NCBI GenBank assembly: GCA_030446715.1
Contig: JAUJMU010000001.1
Span: 124,001-188,000 of the forward strand
Direction: 5' to 3'
Length of the DNA stretch: 64,000 nucleotides
Source: Cytophagales bacterium
GTDB taxonomy: Bacteria > Bacteroidota > Bacteroidia > Cytophagales > 172606-1
Below are positions 14,290-34,956 of the stretch, piece by piece. Positions within the stretch are counted from its first letter, which is position 1, and every line of letters begins with the position of its first letter. A program made the position numbers and the translations under genes. The notes under the pieces were generated by a model that made no database searches, was not told where the DNA came from, and saw only the letters and a list, made by a program, of their open reading frames with translations.

Positions 14290-15339
14290 ATGCTCAATAC
14301 AACCACTTTACAAGTCAATCTGGAGTTCCTTAATCTAATCAGTGAAATTGATGAGTTTAAGGGTGCCTGGCGTACATTAGGGACTCTGGCACCAGAACGC
14401 CTGTCCGCTCTGCGCCGTGTAGCAACCATTGAAAGCATCGGCTCATCTACGCGGATTGAAGGCAGCAAGCTCTCTGACCGGGATATCGAACGCTTACTAT
14501 CCAACCTGGAAATCCAGTCATTTGCTACACGGGACGAGCAGGAAGTTGCTGGTTATGCCGCTGTAATGAATACGGTTTTCCGGGCATGGGAAGACATCCC
14601 TGTTACTGAAAATTACATCCAGCAGTTGCACGGGGACTTGCTGACCTACAGCGAAAAGGACACCTGGCACCGCGGACGATATAAAACTACCTCTAACTCC
14701 GTTGCCGCTTTTGACGCGGCAGGAAAACAAGTTGGAGTCGTTTTTGAAACGGCTACGCCTTTCGATACGCCTTTTCTAATGAGTGAACTGGTAGCTTGGT
14801 TGAACAAAGCCCGGGAAGAGCGGCGTTTGCACCCTGTATTGATTATAGGTGTGTTTGTTGTTGTCTTCCTAGAGATTCACCCGTTTCAGGACGGCAATGG
14901 CCGTCTTAGCCGTATTCTAACGACACTACTGCTGTTACAGGCTGGCTATGCCTATGTACCCTACAGCTCATTGGAAAGCGTCATTGAGCAGAATAAGGAA
15001 GCCTATTACCTGGCTCTGCGTCAAACACAAGGGACTATTCGCACTGACGCGCCCAACTGGCAGCCGTGGCTTGTTTTCTTCCTGCGGGCCATGCAACAGC
15101 AAAAGCAGTGTCTTGCCAGAAAGGTTGAACGCGAGAAGATTGTTCTTTCCAATTTGCCGGAACTCTCCGTGCAAATCCTTGAGCATGCTCGTGCTCATGG
15201 ACGTGTGACAATTGGGGAAATGATCCAATTGACCGGAGTTAGCCGCAACACCCTCAAAGATCACTTCCGCGCCTTGACAGAAAAGAACCATCTAATACAG
15301 CACGGTGGCGGACGGACCACTTGGTACAGCTTGCCTTAG
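14290..15339 (+). CDS. Fic family protein (AMPylase-type) with C-terminal HTH
   Basis: 349 residues from the ATG at 14290; the frame extends to a TTG at 14272, but that start is less likely. An N-terminal inhibitory motif SSTRIEG (S/T-xxx-E-G type) lies about residues 55-61. The Fic core motif EIHPFQDGNGRLSR lies about 195-210, with the catalytic His and the nucleotide-binding DGNGR. The C-terminal ~70 residues form a winged-helix-like domain (VTIGEMIQLTGVSRNTLKDH). Fic proteins transfer AMP or other nucleotides to target proteins; the inhibitory Glu keeps them off until relieved. It lies 70 nt before the Argonaute operon on the same strand, but its composition is closer to the core genome. 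Confidence 0.9.
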   Translation: MLNTTTLQVNLEFLNLISEIDEFKGAWRTLGTLAPERLSALRRVATIESIGSSTRIEGSKLSDRDIERLLSNLEIQSFATRDEQEVAGYAAVMNTVFRAWEDIPVTENYIQQLHGDLLTYSEKDTWHRGRYKTTSNSVAAFDAAGKQVGVVFETATPFDTPFLMSELVAWLNKAREERRLHPVLIIGVFVVVFLEIHPFQDGNGRLSRILTTLLLLQAGYAYVPYSSLESVIEQNKEAYYLALRQTQGTIRTDAPNWQPWLVFFLRAMQQQKQCLARKVEREKIVLSNLPELSVQILEHARAHGRVTIGEMIQLTGVSRNTLKDHFRALTEKNHLIQHGGGRTTWYSLP

Positions 15340-28472: not shown

Positions 28473-29650
28473 ATGTCCAAATTACTTCCAATTCACCCTT
28501 TCCCTGCCCGTATGGCACCCGAAATAGCATATGAAGCAATCAAAAATTTACCTGCAGGTTCTACTGTCTTAGATCCAATGCTCGGTTCTGGCACAACAGC
28601 CAAAATTGCTTCCTTAAATGGACATAGGTGCATTGGTTTTGACATTGATCCCTTATCAATCCTTATTTCTAAAGCTTGGAGTTCTTGTGTTCCTCAACAA
28701 CAGGTAATCAAGAGTATGTACAAAACTCTGGAATCAACAGTAAACCTGAAAAAGGATATTCACTTACCTTGGATTATTTGATGACGATCTGGAAACAAAG
28801 CGGTTCATTGATTACTGGTTTGCTCCCCAACAACGGGATGATCTGAGGAAGCTATCTTATCTAATAACAAATCATTCAGATCCCGGAATACAGATTATTT
28901 TAAAAGTTGCCCTTAGCAAATTGATTATTACTAAAGATAAGGGGCCTCATTAGCCCGCGACGTCTCACATGGCAAACCTCACAAAGTTCGAAGTGAAAAT
29001 GACTACAATGTAATTGACAACTTTGAAAAAGTAGTCACCCATATTACCAAGAAAGCCAACGTCAACGCGGCAATAGTGCCACAGATCGGTTTATGTGATG
29101 CACGTAGACTGGCTGATGTTGATAACGATTTAGTCGATTTAATAATCACCTCTCCTCCTTATCTTCATGCTGTTGAGTACATGAGGGGACACAAACTATC
29201 TCTTGTGTGGCTGGGTTACTCCTTAAAGGACCTGCGTAAGATCAAGGAAAGCACAATTGGCACGCCGATTCGTCCCACTGAAGATGCTGATATTTTAAAA
29301 CTCGATTGCTCCATGAAGTAGGTGAACTTCATCAGCTACCCCTGATAAAGCAAAAACATGTTTTAAAGTATGCTGTTGATTTATATGCCACTGTCAAAGA
29401 GTTTCACCGTGTACTTAGACAGGGTGGGAGGGCTACAGTGGTGATTGCAGATGCTTTCTCAAAAGGTGTTTTAGTCAAGAATACGCAGATATTAAAGAAC
29501 GCTGCTGAACTTAGTGGTCTCAGGTTACACCATGAGCAGCAAAGGCAAATCCTTGCCTCGAAGCGATACTTACCTCCTCCAACAGCATCATCAGGCAATG
29601 ACCTAGGTAAAAGGATGAAGACGGAGTCAGTTTTAACTTTTACCAAGTAA
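28473..29650 (+). pseudogene. DNA methyltransferase, multiply frameshifted
   Basis: The N-terminal frame (28473-28781) carries motif I, VLDPMLGSGTTAKIA (about 32-46), and the GFDIDPLSILIS acidic loop. Coding then moves to a second frame from about 28780 (DDDLETKRFIDYWF), to a third at the GGGG run 28941-28944 (SLARDVSHGKPHK), and holds through the catalytic SPPYLHAVEYM at about 29150. It shifts again near 29300-29320 and ends as KTESVLTFTK. Motif I precedes SPPY, and SPPY suggests an amino methyltransferase (N4-cytosine or N6-adenine). An intact protein would have about 390 residues. At least three indels break it. It is the first gene of the NurA-HerA operon. Confidence 0.8.
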
Positions 29651-29664
29651 AGCACTGTTCGGAG

Positions 29665-30294
29665 ATGGGATCAGCATCATATCGGGAACTAAGCTTACAT
29701 CAAAGGCTAATGGCTAGAGATGAGACAGCTACTATTGAACTTTCAGGACTATACTATTTCCAATTAATAGAACAGGTCATCAAAAAGTATGGGCGTGTTC
29801 TTACCGATGAGGACACAATCGCAAGCATTGTCGGAGATGTAATACTAGACTATGGAGCAAATCCACATAAATACAACCCTGACAAAAGCTCGCTTTACGG
29901 GTACTTAAAAATGGCCGTGGACGGGGATATCAAAAATTTGCTAAAAGGACAAACCAAAGGCAAGCGAAGGCTGAAATCAAAAAATATTGGTGGAAGTGTC
30001 GAACTTGACAGTCTATTCCGGAATAGTATAGTAAGAGAGGTAAATGACCCGGCTACAAACCTGATTACAACCGAGGATGAAGAGAGAAGTACCCGAGCCA
30101 TAGAAGCCCTTTTTCCCGATCCTGCTGATCGTGAATTGGTAAACCTTATGCGTTCAGGCACTCGAGAAACAGAACCTTATGCTATAGTACTTGAAATAAC
30201 ACATTTGTCTATAATAGATCAGAGGAAAAAAGTGAAACAACATAAAGACCGCATCAAAAAAAAGCTGTATAGGTTTCAAAGCCAATCTTCATAA
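29665..30294 (+). CDS. Sigma-70-like protein in the defence operon
   Basis: 209 residues. The N-terminal half resembles sigma region 2 (TIASIVGDVILDYGANPHKY, NPDKSSLYGYLKMAVDGDI). The C-terminal half resembles region 4 (LFPDPADRELVNLMRSGTRE, then VKQHKDRIKKKLYRF, the recognition-helix-like end). It could direct RNA polymerase to island promoters or act as a DNA-binding regulator. It starts 14 nt after the methyltransferase stop and is followed after 11 nt by the small protein gene. Confidence 0.6.
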   Translation: MGSASYRELSLHQRLMARDETATIELSGLYYFQLIEQVIKKYGRVLTDEDTIASIVGDVILDYGANPHKYNPDKSSLYGYLKMAVDGDIKNLLKGQTKGKRRLKSKNIGGSVELDSLFRNSIVREVNDPATNLITTEDEERSTRAIEALFPDPADRELVNLMRSGTRETEPYAIVLEITHLSIIDQRKKVKQHKDRIKKKLYRFQSQSS

Positions 30295-30305
30295 ATATCT
30301 TAAAA

Positions 30306-30668
30306 ATGAACAAGCGTACGCATTATAAAGAACTACTTATAAAAAAAGCATCCTTAAATAGGGAGTACTTAGCTTCTTACATTGAGCGGTATATGCAGTT
30401 CGAGAACATAGACAAGGAAAATATTAAATTACTCCTAGGGTGCTCAGAAGACAACTATTTCAAACTATGCGTCTGTTTGGCTCCGGAGTTAGAAGCAGAA
30501 GATTTTAAAGAGCGCATTGACAAAATTGCTGCCGCAACCTCTACCTCCTCACTGTCAATTATAAGAATATTGAAACGAGTAGATATGCTACAATCTATTG
30601 GTGACTCAGATGTTATGCTAATGGCAGCCCGAATGAAAGAGTCTAAAAATGAACGAGACGATGAATAA
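30306..30668 (+). CDS. Small regulator-like protein (120 aa) before the ImmA/IrrE protease
   Basis: 120 residues, soluble, helical. A segment LLLGCSEDNYFKLCVCLAP reads like a short helix-turn-helix-type region, and the C-terminus is charged (ESKNERDDE). I do not know the family. It lies between a sigma-like protein and an ImmA/IrrE protease with 11-nt gaps on each side. A plausible role is anti-sigma factor or repressor cleaved by the protease, by analogy with DdrO/IrrE and ImmR/ImmA; this is inference. Confidence 0.6.
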   Translation: MNKRTHYKELLIKKASLNREYLASYIERYMQFENIDKENIKLLLGCSEDNYFKLCVCLAPELEAEDFKERIDKIAAATSTSSLSIIRILKRVDMLQSIGDSDVMLMAARMKESKNERDDE

Positions 30669-30679
30669 AATATATCGTT

Positions 30680-31438
30680 GTGAAAACCATTTATGCAACG
30701 CCTTATATTATTGAGTTAGCAACAAGCTTTTGGAAGAAAGCGGGGGATATAAGTTCTTGGCCTCGTGATTTAGATCAAGCAGTTGCAGTTGCTCTACCAA
30801 TTGATGTAGTAAGTTTATCAAGATTAAGTACAAAGAAAATAGAAAAGTGGTTTCGCTCACGTAACTTTTCTTACCAACTTCTCGCTGATGATAAGCTTTT
30901 GCACGGTTTTATTATGATGAACCGGGGAAAGGGCTTCATATTCCTTAACGGAACTGACAGTAAAGAAGAAAGGCTTTTCACTCTTGCTCACGAAGTATCC
31001 CACTATATTATAGATTATCAGCAACCTCGCATTAAAGCCAGCAAGGTATTTGGAAAGCGTATTTTAGAAGTAGTAGATAGGCTTCGACCACCCACATCGC
31101 AGGAACAAGTAGACAGTGTCTTACTAGCCACAGAAATCAAACCTTATACCCACTTACTGGCAAAAGGCAGTAACTCCTACTGCAATGATTTGAAGATTTG
31201 GCAAGCAGAGGATAAGGCTGACGCATTAGCTTTCGAGCTATTAGCACCTTTTAACTCTGTTTATGCTGATCTGAAGGAGAAATCCGTTTCCTCATATAAA
31301 AACTGCTGTGCAGTTGCAGAACAGCTACTTATTAATAAATACGGTTTACCATCTTCTGTCACTTCATTGTATGCCCATTTTTTGGCACGCAGTATAACTG
31401 GTGGCCCTTCCGCATTAGAATCACTAGGATTAATATAA
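30680..31438 (+). CDS. ImmA/IrrE-family metallopeptidase
   Basis: 252 residues from a GTG at 30680 (no better ATG in frame). The zinc protease motif LAHEVSHYIIDY (HExxH, about 102-113) is intact, followed about 75 residues later by an acidic third-ligand region (AEDKADALAFELLAP). ImmA/IrrE enzymes cleave DNA-binding repressors in response to stress or mobile-element signals. The likely target is the 120-residue protein encoded just upstream (inference). Confidence 0.85.
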   Translation: MKTIYATPYIIELATSFWKKAGDISSWPRDLDQAVAVALPIDVVSLSRLSTKKIEKWFRSRNFSYQLLADDKLLHGFIMMNRGKGFIFLNGTDSKEERLFTLAHEVSHYIIDYQQPRIKASKVFGKRILEVVDRLRPPTSQEQVDSVLLATEIKPYTHLLAKGSNSYCNDLKIWQAEDKADALAFELLAPFNSVYADLKEKSVSSYKNCCAVAEQLLINKYGLPSSVTSLYAHFLARSITGGPSALESLGLI

Positions 31439-31502
31439 AAATTTGTATTGCCTGTCGAACTTGATTGACTTCTCCGGAATAGATTATTAAACAGTTTCTT
31501 TT

Positions 31503-32699
31503 ATGGAAGAAATAAACCAGCCACTGCCATATAGTAGCGAAATTGTACCTAATTCTATTAAGGGGCAAGAGTTGTCGTCACAACAGGAATATGAGAAAGC
31601 CATTGAAGCAGCTACGGACTTAGATACTTGGCATGATGGTGTTGACTTAATCAAGCTTTACCCAGAAATGAAAAAATGGGTAGAAGATGGGATTTACAAT
31701 GATGAACTGGGTGCCAAACAAATCAGGTCGGAGATCATTCCTATGATTGAGACTAGCCCTAATAGAATCGAATGTTCTGGGCTACACAAATTTGAGCCCT
31801 CTGATATTGAGAGAGCTCATCGTGGGTTATTGTTCAATGGTGGAGTTGAGGCATGCGATGGTACAATGGCATCGCATGATACACTTCCCTTGACTACTAC
31901 CCAAATCGGTGTTTGCATGGCTTCTTATCACGGACAACAAGGAAGTTTTGTACACCGCCTTTTTAGAAAAGATTTTAAAATTCGTGGTGAAGATCCAATG
32001 AATGAGGCTTTAGAGATGCTTAATCTGCGAAGTAAAAGAGATAGTATTGGATATAGCGAGCACGCGGGTAGAGGTATTATGGCTTATGCAGAACGAGCTC
32101 TGTTGTTAGAAAAATCAAAAGCAAGATGGCATATGGGACATGGTAGTCCTGTACCCTGGGAGTTGATGACGGGCTTTTGGGCAAGTAAGCGTGATATGAC
32201 TGATAAAGCATTGGATTTGATGAGGAGAATGATAAATCATAAACGCTTTGTTTATATACCAAGTGCGCCTAAAAAACTTGCTTTGTTATCATTTGGCAAC
32301 GCTCTCAAGCCCTTCGAATATCTAGTACTAACCACTTATGAGAAGGAATTAAACGATTTACTTGAAGATGGGCATATTCGTGACTCTTACATAAAAAAGA
32401 ATATGCAAGAATTTGTCAATGAAGTAGGCCCACAGATTGCTATTGGTGTTTACCGTGCGTCTCCTTTTTCTCCTCCTTTTGTTTACTATGCTCATCGAGA
32501 CAACATGCAGATCGCTGCGCTTATTGCAATGGCTGATAGTACTCTCCAGCAGCATAGAGGATTTCCAATGCTGATCGATATTGCCGATAAATTATGCCAA
32601 AGCTCATTTGGAGCAAACACTTTTAAATCAACTGTCCAGCAGGCTTATGCTGATGCAGGAAGACCATTCCAGTACTCGCCCGAACGAGACACTCGTTAA
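31503..32699 (+). CDS. NurA-type nuclease
   Basis: 398 residues. The NurA pattern is seen in a central GGVEACDGTMASHDTLPL stretch (about 119-136; the Asp of CDG is the predicted metal ligand), a VYRASPFSPPFVYY strand and a C-terminal segment with RDNMQIAALIAMADSTLQ and a closing QHRGFPMLIDIADKL, which in NurA holds the second part of the RNase H-like site. NurA works as a dimer with hexameric HerA to degrade DNA ends. It lies 41 nt before herA. Confidence 0.75.
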   Translation: MEEINQPLPYSSEIVPNSIKGQELSSQQEYEKAIEAATDLDTWHDGVDLIKLYPEMKKWVEDGIYNDELGAKQIRSEIIPMIETSPNRIECSGLHKFEPSDIERAHRGLLFNGGVEACDGTMASHDTLPLTTTQIGVCMASYHGQQGSFVHRLFRKDFKIRGEDPMNEALEMLNLRSKRDSIGYSEHAGRGIMAYAERALLLEKSKARWHMGHGSPVPWELMTGFWASKRDMTDKALDLMRRMINHKRFVYIPSAPKKLALLSFGNALKPFEYLVLTTYEKELNDLLEDGHIRDSYIKKNMQEFVNEVGPQIAIGVYRASPFSPPFVYYAHRDNMQIAALIAMADSTLQQHRGFPMLIDIADKLCQSSFGANTFKSTVQQAYADAGRPFQYSPERDTR

Positions 32700-32740
32700 G
32701 ACCCTAAAATAATAATCTCACAACAATAATTAATACTCCT

Positions 32741-34615
32741 ATGCAGCCAGACTTATTCTCTAACAATCCTGTCACGGAAAACGGTAAAAAGGAACCCATT
32801 GCCAAACCTCCTAGTGCAGAATTAAGGCAACAAATTGCCGAGCATATAGACGAAGGCGGAGGAGAACAAACAATTGACCCTGCGTTTGAAGGAGCCCACG
32901 GCACTACTATGTTTGACCTGCCTAATAGTGAAGATAATATTATAACAGTGTTACTTCCTCGCGAGCATATACAAAAACTTTCTTCTCAATCACTTGTAAG
33001 GATAGGCAGTCGCAGTTTAAATCATGGTGGAGATGGAAGAGAATATCGAGGGATAGTAATTGCTGGTCCTTTTCATGAACCGGACGGGTTAAGAGCGGAC
33101 ACTAACATGATCGTTATACCTACAATCAATGGAGCATTCTTCATGCCTAAATACCATGGGCGTGTCCAAGTTGAAATCATGGGAGAACTTAAAGCTGATG
33201 TTGTAATTGCTCCTCTTTTTCGCCCTTTACCTAATAGCCCCGTTTTTGCGCTTGATGAAGAGGAAACAAAAAAATTATTAAAAATCGACGGAGAAATGTT
33301 GCTTGGTCAAGCTGTAGGTCACAATAATATGGAAGTTTTTATACCGAGGCGAAAAGAAGTCATATCTAAACATATGGTTGTATTAGGGAATACCGGCGGT
33401 GGTAAATCAACAACTAATTCTGGTTTGATAAGCCAATTTCAAAAGCAAGATATAGCTACAATTGTCTTTGATACTGAAGGAGAATACACACACATCGATA
33501 AACCTACTGAAGATGAAATAATGATCGGTTTGTTAAAAAAGCAAGGTAAAAATCCTGAGAAGGTTTCTAATATTCATGTTTACCATCTAACTGGTAGAGA
33601 TACTAAAGCAGAGCCTCCCACTCCAATAAGTGCTTTCAAACTAAACTTTTCTAATCTGTCTCCTTATGCAGCAGCCGATATTTTGGATCTAAATGACACT
33701 CAGCGTGATCGCTTTTTTGACCTGTATGACTTAACCAAGTTTATTATAAAAACTACAGGAATATATCCAAAGGTTGATGACATAAAGGAAGCAAAAGAAG
33801 CCAGTAGTATTGACGAATTGGAAACCGGTTATCCAAAAATGACTTTATCGCTTTTAATCGATATGGTTGAGTTTGTTATTGCTTATCTGTCAAAAGATGA
33901 CTATGAACCTTTTAATAAGGTTCTACAGGATGTTCAAACAATCCGGATTATTAAAGAACGGCTTGATAAGATGAAGCCTGATTCAAAAGCAAGCTGGAAA
34001 GCTGTGAAAAATCGACTTTGGAGACTACACAAGCCTGGGATATTTGATCAAGCATCGTGTGCGGAGATTTCATACAAAGATTTATTACAGCCCGGAAAAG
34101 TATCTATTATTGACTTAAGCGATACTGATTCTACTATGATTAACAATTTAGTAATTGCTAATCTACTTCGAGGAATACAGTTAGAGCAAGATAGAGCTTA
34201 TGAGCAAGCTGTTAATGAAGGCAAAAGTCCTACTCCAGCAATGATTATTATTGAAGAAGCGCATGAATTTCTTCATAAGGACCGTATTGCAAAAATGGAT
34301 CACTTATTTCAACAAGTTGCACGTATAGCACGCAGGGGTCGTAAGCGCTGGTTAGGTCTTTTATTCTCCACTCAGTTGCCTCAGCATTTGCCTGATGAAG
34401 TGTTAGGGCTTGTTAACAATCACATACTTCATAAAATTAATGACGCTACTGTTGTAAGCAGGCTAAAAAAATCTATAGGAGGTATAGATGAAAGCTTATG
34501 GAATAAATTACCAAACTTGGCCTCTGGTCAAGCTATTGTGAACACAACACGAATGGCAAGATCTTTATTAGTAGCTATTAACCCAACACCTTGTAAGTTG
34601 TTAATGATCGAGTAA
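32741..34615 (+). CDS. HerA-type DNA translocase ATPase
   Basis: 624 residues. An N-terminal HAS-barrel-like region (about 60-170) precedes the ATPase core: Walker A VLGNTGGGKSTTNSG (about 212-226), Walker B AMIIIEEAHEFLH (about 498-510), and the sensor/arginine-finger region QVARIARRGRKRWLGLLFST then PDEVLGLVNNHILHKI. The C-terminal KLLMIE is typical of HerA. It forms a hexameric ring that feeds DNA to NurA. This is the last gene of the AT-rich operon that starts at 28473. Confidence 0.9.
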   Translation: MQPDLFSNNPVTENGKKEPIAKPPSAELRQQIAEHIDEGGGEQTIDPAFEGAHGTTMFDLPNSEDNIITVLLPREHIQKLSSQSLVRIGSRSLNHGGDGREYRGIVIAGPFHEPDGLRADTNMIVIPTINGAFFMPKYHGRVQVEIMGELKADVVIAPLFRPLPNSPVFALDEEETKKLLKIDGEMLLGQAVGHNNMEVFIPRRKEVISKHMVVLGNTGGGKSTTNSGLISQFQKQDIATIVFDTEGEYTHIDKPTEDEIMIGLLKKQGKNPEKVSNIHVYHLTGRDTKAEPPTPISAFKLNFSNLSPYAAADILDLNDTQRDRFFDLYDLTKFIIKTTGIYPKVDDIKEAKEASSIDELETGYPKMTLSLLIDMVEFVIAYLSKDDYEPFNKVLQDVQTIRIIKERLDKMKPDSKASWKAVKNRLWRLHKPGIFDQASCAEISYKDLLQPGKVSIIDLSDTDSTMINNLVIANLLRGIQLEQDRAYEQAVNEGKSPTPAMIIIEEAHEFLHKDRIAKMDHLFQQVARIARRGRKRWLGLLFSTQLPQHLPDEVLGLVNNHILHKINDATVVSRLKKSIGGIDESLWNKLPNLASGQAIVNTTRMARSLLVAINPTPCKLLMIE

Positions 34616-34677: not shown

Positions 34678-34956
34678 ATGGATAATTTCGACCTTACCCT
34701 TGATTTCAGTCTTATCAGTGCTCCCGAGTTGAGTTCTATCCGGGTCAACCACACAGAGGTCAAATCCGTATTTGAGAACAAGAACTCCAGATACGAGGAT
34801 TTCGGAGACTTCAGGTTTGCAATAGGATACAGCAGTAAATCCAAATTTTTGTCTGTTGCATTTGATACCCAAACCGAAATCGCCGATATTAGGGTATTGA
34901 AAGTCTATCTGTCCCATGAAACCGAAATTCAGAAAATCTACTGCACCCCAGGCTGA
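34678..34956 (+). CDS. Small protein, possible BrnT-like toxin
   Basis: 92 residues. A His-x(4)-VKSVFEN region, RFAIGYSSKSKFLSVAFD, and a C-terminal DIRVLKVYLSHETEIQKIY together resemble BrnT/RelE-like small toxins (RNase fold), but weakly. A second small gene overlaps its end by 41 nt, as in many toxin-antitoxin pairs. It follows the HerA gene by 62 nt on the same strand. Confidence 0.45.
   Translation: MDNFDLTLDFSLISAPELSSIRVNHTEVKSVFENKNSRYEDFGDFRFAIGYSSKSKFLSVAFDTQTEIADIRVLKVYLSHETEIQKIYCTPG

Follow-up and report, generated by a model that had tools for sequence, protein, structure and literature searches.

The window analyzed here, a 64,000-nucleotide stretch of a contig from a Cytophagales bacterium, carries an island of six genes (28473-34615) that we propose, with a probability of about 0.6, to be a horizontally acquired, probable anti-phage cassette with a dedicated switch. 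In this switch, a sigma factor would act on a private promoter and a small protein would serve as an anti-sigma factor that is cut by an ImmA-type protease. The three switch genes lie on the forward strand and encode an extracytoplasmic function (ECF)-type sigma factor (29665-30294; 209 amino acids (aa), ATG start), a small partner that is helix-turn-helix (HTH)-like (30306-30668; 120 aa, ATG start) and an ImmA/IrrE-type (M78) metalloprotease (30680-31438; 252 aa, GTG start). The open reading frame (ORF) coordinates bear out the spacing given in an earlier sequence-only reading of this DNA, with gaps of 11 nucleotides (nt) each between the three genes (30295-30305 and 30669-30679). They are followed on the same strand by a gene in the NurA position (31503-32699; 398 aa), whose product is a putative nuclease partner of HerA with the NurA label unproven, and by herA (32741-34615), which encodes a HerA/FtsK-type ATPase of 624 aa. 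The broken remains of a DNA methyltransferase gene (28473-29650) precede the sigma gene.

In a resting cell, the sigma factor would be kept inactive by the small HTH-like protein. During infection, a signal such as single-stranded DNA (ssDNA) would activate the ImmA-type protease, and the small protein would then be cut in or close to the AAR(D) motif that is conserved at its C-terminus. The freed ECF-type sigma factor would direct RNA polymerase to the private promoter, GTCGAACTT-N13-GGAA(t)A, and switch on the effectors, together with nearby defence genes in some genomes. One promoter copy would drive the NurA-like-herA effector pair, and a copy inside the sigma gene could raise the levels of the small protein and the protease. 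Underlying this model are the conservation of the genes, the sigma fold, the protease motif and a conserved, oriented element that is private to the cassette. From these we infer that the sigma factor reads the element and that the small protein is an anti-sigma factor cleaved in its tail, as well as the trigger and the anti-phage role.

The cassette was traced in a scan of one genome per species, with an ImmA-based search since the sigma patterns seemed too narrow. This returned 66 loci, each of which was confirmed by tblastn with the window protein. The ImmA search alignment included two fragment rows meant to widen the patterns, on which no conclusion rests. One locus (L096) contained an unrelated ImmA and was excluded, leaving 65 related loci. 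The sigma-small-ImmA trio kept its order with all three genes intact in 61 of these, and the NurA-like gene and herA came next in every case where the contig was long enough. The sequence-only reading had allowed for a trio that is never conserved together or that occurs without NurA-HerA; the former outcome did not arise, and the pair accompanied the trio wherever the contig reached. The loci came from at least ten phyla, with record titles that included Bacteroidota, Chloroflexota, Planctomycetota, Myxococcota, Deinococcota and Acidobacteriota, and further Actinomycetota, Pseudomonadota, KSB1, Armatimonadota-type and Desulfobacterota-type titles. Identity of the sigma proteins to the window protein was roughly 20-37%. 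A search of whole genomes that started from the sigma factor gave 52 strong matches, 51 of which had the small gene and immA directly downstream; ordinary ECF matches at 35-49 bits had neither as neighbours. Judged from these sequence comparisons, the arrangement is not due to chance and the trio is a conserved unit. Viral contigs scanned with the sigma or ImmA alignments contained no relative, and plasmids contained no sigma, ImmA or NurA-like match.

Some loci depart from the standard arrangement. In a Mycobacterium metagenome-assembled genome (L089:3189-4295), the small protein is naturally fused to ImmA, and a serine replaces its otherwise invariant cysteine. We count this fusion in favour of the model, as it would tie the protease to the small partner. 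A deletion at another locus (L091:7836-8585) has joined the N-terminus of the sigma factor to ImmA with loss of the small protein, while the NurA-like gene and herA remain, and the sigma gene of L037 is fragmented. One locus titled Comamonas (L069) grouped with Myxococcota in a whole-genome search and has a myxococcal-type locus; it is probably mislabelled.

The 209-aa protein is an ECF-type sigma factor. The window protein alone had no Pfam match, and Sigma70_r2 (PF04542) was matched by 37 of the 62 members of its family (best E-value 1.3e-9). Searched against the PDB, the family profile found ECF sigma factors (best E-value 8.7e-7), and TIGR02937 (sigma70-ECF) covered residues 24-192 of one relative at 2e-10, just under the cut-off. 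An earlier profile made from two sequences had retrieved ordinary ECF-like sigmas in Bacteroidota genomes. The AlphaFold2 model of the window protein has a mean predicted local distance difference test (pLDDT) score of 88.7 and two confident helical domains, sigma2 and sigma4, with a disordered linker between them (residues 114-134). This sigma2-linker-sigma4 layout without region 3 is that of ECF sigma factors. The best structural matches of the model (Foldseek, VIA) were sigma factors; the match to SigW region 2 had a Z of 11.7 over 94 residues at 2.4 A, and alignments to sigmaE (1or7, 6jbq) and AlgU covered residues 4-209. The protein had been read from sequence as region 2/region 4 sigma-like, with the absence of a sigma fold as the refuting outcome. 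Region 2 was recovered through the Pfam matches of the relatives, both regions are present in the predicted model, and a missing fold did not arise.

Most of the gaps between immA and the NurA-like gene contain a promoter-like element, GTCGAACTT-N13-GGAA, which frequently continues with (T)A. In the window, it lies on the forward strand at 31454-31484 (GTCGAACTTGATTGACTTCTCCGGAATAGAT), where the GGAA ends 23 nt before the start codon of the NurA-like gene, and again on the forward strand inside the sigma gene at 29998-30028 (GTCGAACTTGACAGTCTATTCCGGAATAGTA), where it sits in the codons of the disordered linker (VEL...GN/GKY). Among the related loci, the element was present in 30 of 42 immA-NurA-like gaps of at least 30 bp, compared to a mean of 0.03 in dinucleotide shuffles, and was usually located 20-45 nt before the nurA start. 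The internal copy occurred in 30 of 62 sigma genes, compared to a mean of 3.1 and a maximum of 9 in synonymous-codon shuffles. The Myxococcota loci leave hardly any space between immA and the NurA-like gene, and thus no room for a promoter there. A dyad search without a preset motif upstream of the sigma gene, mostly in myxococcal loci, ranked the same motif first. All 26 distinct Myxococcota loci contained GTCGAACTC-N13-CGAA about 60 bp before the sigma start codon, and 23 of them contained the internal copy too. When the two copies of a locus were compared, they had the same base at position 5 of the -35 in 20/21 pairs (permutation p about 0.001) and at the start of the -10 in 37/38 pairs; these agreement statistics, like the counts above, ignore shared ancestry, which inflates them, but the loci span many phyla. 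Such co-variation within a locus is expected if one factor reads both copies.

The element is also private to the cassette. When the 6.4-Mb host genome was scanned by pattern, exactly two matches were returned, those at 29998 and 31454. Elsewhere, 3/3 copies in Daejeonella and 2/2 in three Thermogemmatispora-type genomes were at the cassette. ECF promoters are known to be strict in their -35, -10 and spacer, and GGAAYA is one example of their -35 elements (PMC6411747). By its base sequence, GTCGAACTT is of the ECF -35 type. Considering that the element precedes both the effectors and the sigma gene, and that the cassette encodes an HTH-like protein, the element might instead be an operator for that protein and no sigma promoter at all. 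An operator of this kind is hard to reconcile with an asymmetric element that lacks dyad symmetry, keeps a fixed N13/14 spacing and always lies on the strand of the downstream gene. The AAC-containing -35-like half and a distance to the start codon typical of promoters also speak against it, and we regard the operator as unlikely in the extreme.

We infer instead that the sigma factor reads the private element, and sigma control of the NurA-like-herA pair is, on the sequence evidence, well supported. The earlier proposal that the sigma factor turns on NurA-HerA is thus strongly favoured by a conserved, private element directly upstream of the pair, except that the NurA label is unproven. As a check, promoter mapping had been suggested upstream of both 31503 and 28473. 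The element was found upstream of the former, but the pattern scan of the host genome showed no copy in front of the methyltransferase gene at 28473. A methyltransferase gene that is free of the element fits constant modification combined with conditional effectors.

The other cassette proteins were compared to known families. The third protein of the trio had been described as a protease with an intact HExxH, and this holds: it contains AHEVSH, with HExxH at residues 104-108 (codons 30989-31003), and matches Peptidase_M78 (PF06114) at 2.5e-7 (31 bits versus a cut-off of 22). HExxH was intact in 63/63 ImmA family members. The identification of HerA as a HerA/FtsK-type ATPase was likewise confirmed (PF01935 1.3e-20, PF05872 1.5e-11, PADLOC HerA 2.2e-27). 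In two ORFs each, herA was found at L034:10077-11918, L068:4837-6759 and L046:6413-8240, as if the effector is often inactivated. We could not confirm the NurA label of the 398-aa protein, which had no family match in Pfam, PADLOC, NCBIfam or the PDB. None of 16 NurA-like members had any Pfam match, the NurA domain (PF09376) included, and an hhalign comparison with 14 true NurA proteins gave a probability of 4.5 over 29 columns around a DGT/DGS motif. The 16 members share a mean column identity of 51%, and the gene is present wherever the contig reaches. The only defence-library matches in the cassette were to HerA, generic methyltransferase and M78 models. The sigma, small and NurA-like proteins of the window had no curated defence model in PADLOC (2023) or NCBIfam (2026), where no model for them was found beyond the generic sigma70-ECF superfamily.

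In its AlphaFold2 model (pLDDT 89.3), the small partner forms a domain made up of helices only, and its tail is flexible (pLDDT about 60). HTH_31 matched 15 of 64 relatives (best 9e-6), and some relatives matched other HTH families, including HTH_3-type families. A PDB profile search with the small protein returned nothing significant. Foldseek placed DdrO and CapH at ranks 3-5, which was not significant (E above 0.8). Matches to signal recognition particle and homeodomain helices (Foldseek, VIA) were set aside as common helical arrangements. In charge, the HTH-like core ranges from neutral to acidic, and acidic residues predominate where the recognition-like helix begins, at its DNA-facing end. 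Because of this non-basic core, we lean towards protein binding and hence towards an anti-sigma role. A protease-cleaved anti-sigma factor, as the sequence-only reading had suggested, is plausible but unproven, its basis being the adjacency and co-conservation of the genes.

The tail of the small protein is strongly conserved. Its motif, encoded at 30618-30632 on the forward strand, reads LMAAR in the window and LLAARD in relatives. Over 64 sequences, A107 and A108 are invariant and R109 is nearly so, and AARD occurs in 56 of 65 small proteins. DdrO, the substrate of IrrE/PprI, is cut at L108-R109 in its C-terminal region, within a stretch that is conserved in all homologs (PMC4374696). By analogy with this cleavage, AAR(D) is a candidate protease cleavage or docking site. 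Cleavage by both PprI and CapP is stimulated by ssDNA (PMC10904395). The recognition-like helix of the small protein is flanked by the conserved Cys46 (53/64; 30441-30443) and the invariant Cys57 (64/64; 30474-30476), for which metal or redox sensing is possible. At one locus (L086:6280-6714), the gene for the small protein is duplicated in tandem, and the promoter element recurs 72 bp upstream of the second copy.

ImmA/IrrE enzymes control repressors, and their known substrates are HTH repressors. The small protein might therefore be a repressor of the ImmR, DdrO or CapH kind that acts on a basal promoter and is destroyed by ImmA on infection, after which the sigma factor, not itself held in check, would amplify expression from the private promoter. 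The HTH matches of some relatives and the non-significant ranks of DdrO and CapH are in line with this, as is a palindrome, TACCACC-N3-GAGGTA, located 55-56 bp upstream of the Myxococcota sigma promoter. The palindrome is found in nearly all Myxococcota loci that bear the sigma-upstream promoter, about once per cassette genome-wide, and it looks like an operator, for which the small protein is a possible binder as the only HTH candidate in the cassette. The neutral to acidic core and mostly acidic helix start of the small protein argue against DNA binding, and the palindrome was not found upstream of the sigma gene when looked for in non-myxococcal loci. We consider this repressor and amplifier arrangement unlikely, although it deserves serious attention. 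In Myxococcota loci, e.g. L069 and L130-L159, the palindrome is followed by AGACA.

Several points weigh against our proposal of an anti-sigma switch. With its HTH-like core, the small protein could possibly bind DNA as a repressor, like the ImmA/IrrE substrates, and the fixed position of the Myxococcota palindrome counts on the same side. The internal promoter copy lies within the sigma coding sequence, and its conservation is partly at the protein level (3.1 of the 30 occurrences are expected from synonymous shuffles). One locus (L068) lacks a sigma gene beside the small-ImmA pair. Another (L119, genome G801) combines ImmA and a methyltransferase with a distant sigma factor (60 bits), and no small protein was detectable there; this arrangement is possibly a sister system.

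The methyltransferase gene of the window, on the forward strand, has no single open frame. It consists of ORFs 28473-28781, 29076-29321 and 29306-29650, with frame shifts near 28775, 28945 and 29310, whereas the frames of the sigma, small, ImmA, NurA-like and herA genes are open. The first piece matches PF01555 (4.7e-8), PADLOC MTase_II matches all pieces, and the pieces align with intact methyltransferases of 393-417 aa in related loci. Because its methyltransferase is broken, the copy in this window may no longer work as a complete system. Of the 65 loci, 29 have methyltransferases of this family, on either side of the core or opposite to it, and their tie to the cassette is looser than that of the trio. 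Their presence, the position of the Myxococcota sigma gene behind its own promoter and the methyltransferase without an element in the host genome would suit a module that times establishment in a new host like the C proteins of restriction-modification systems. Methylation would come first, the effectors would follow after sigma feedback, and infection would not be sensed. Such a timer leaves the conserved protease without a role and does not match a window in which the methyltransferase is broken and the switch and effectors are intact; we judge it quite improbable.

The island was probably gained horizontally, because its G+C content is 39.4% compared to 54-55% in both flanks. Read from their translations, the genes of the left flank appear to encode cell-wall and division proteins on the opposite strand, and on the right there is a resemblance to a type IB topoisomerase. 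A 92-aa ORF (34678-34956) lies 3' of herA before the flanking chromosomal genes resume.

Further copies of the element were found by inspecting single matches. In Calidithermus (L190), a copy at 14531, near the end of cas3, precedes cas5-cas8c-cas7 of a type I-C system, and in two Planctomycetota loci (L061:12576 and L080:12553) the element precedes a cas4-cas1 fusion. Copies also precede a multi-ubiquitin gene (PF14452) that comes right after herA in Daejeonella (L032:11843-12546), DUF2130 genes (L065:5497-6855 and L082:3-774) and an AAA_23/SMC-type ATPase gene (L050:2649-5179), while the copy at L089:7470-8869 points at a 449-aa gene beside the cassette. We tentatively suggest, at slightly under even odds, a mobile defence-sigma module in which an M78 protease frees an ECF sigma factor by destroying its small HTH-fold partner and the private promoter lies both in linker codons and before the effectors. 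Neighbouring type I-C and Cas4-Cas1 CRISPR, multi-ubiquitin and DUF2130 genes would have joined its regulon by acquiring the promoter.

Parts of this arrangement resemble known systems. Like ImmA-ImmR of ICEBs1, IrrE/PprI-DdrO of Deinococcus and CapP-CapH of CBASS (cyclic oligonucleotide-based anti-phage signalling systems), the cassette has an M78 metalloprotease gene beside a gene for a small HTH-like protein. What sets the cassette apart is the ECF sigma factor, with its private promoter, that accompanies the pair, along with the AAR(D) tail and the non-basic HTH-like core of the small protein. In type III-E CRISPR-Cas, a protease cleaves a sigma factor inhibitor (PMC11291478), so that both loci would share a protease-controlled sigma factor within a defence locus, which for the cassette is a proposal. 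The type III-E protease is RNA-programmed, whereas the cassette has a standalone M78 protease, its effectors are NurA-like-HerA and one promoter copy lies within the sigma gene. The ECF sigma factor DdvS of Myxococcus xanthus, which controls an anti-phage island including CBASS-type and type III-B CRISPR genes, is similarly tied to defence genes (PMC12288465). No ImmA/NurA-like/HerA module is mentioned in that description, and across phyla the cassette sigma factor stays linked to its putative targets. HerA-based defence systems (DUF4297-HerA, Sir2-HerA; HerA/FtsK capture systems, PMC10853773) also combine a HerA ATPase with a partner, sometimes beside methyltransferases. A sigma-ImmA switch for such systems was not found in the papers searched. 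Like C proteins, the cassette regulator is encoded with the effectors that it would time relative to methylation. C proteins are HTH activators, whereas the regulator here is a sigma factor with a protease. We found no description of an M78 protease and small HTH-like protein with an ECF sigma factor and NurA-like-HerA in the open literature, with subscription papers and preprints outside the scope.

It therefore seems that the cassette brings its own on-switch, one that is common to members of at least ten phyla. How defence systems are regulated is far less known than how they act. A private promoter that can be read makes this regulation testable, since the promoter sequence reports the regulon in any carrier genome. 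CRISPR-Cas and ubiquitin-like genes, among others, are already marked by the element and may be co-induced with NurA-like-HerA. If the model is true, ImmA/IrrE proteases would act in sigma control as well as on repressors, and an orthogonal pair of sigma factor and promoter would become available.
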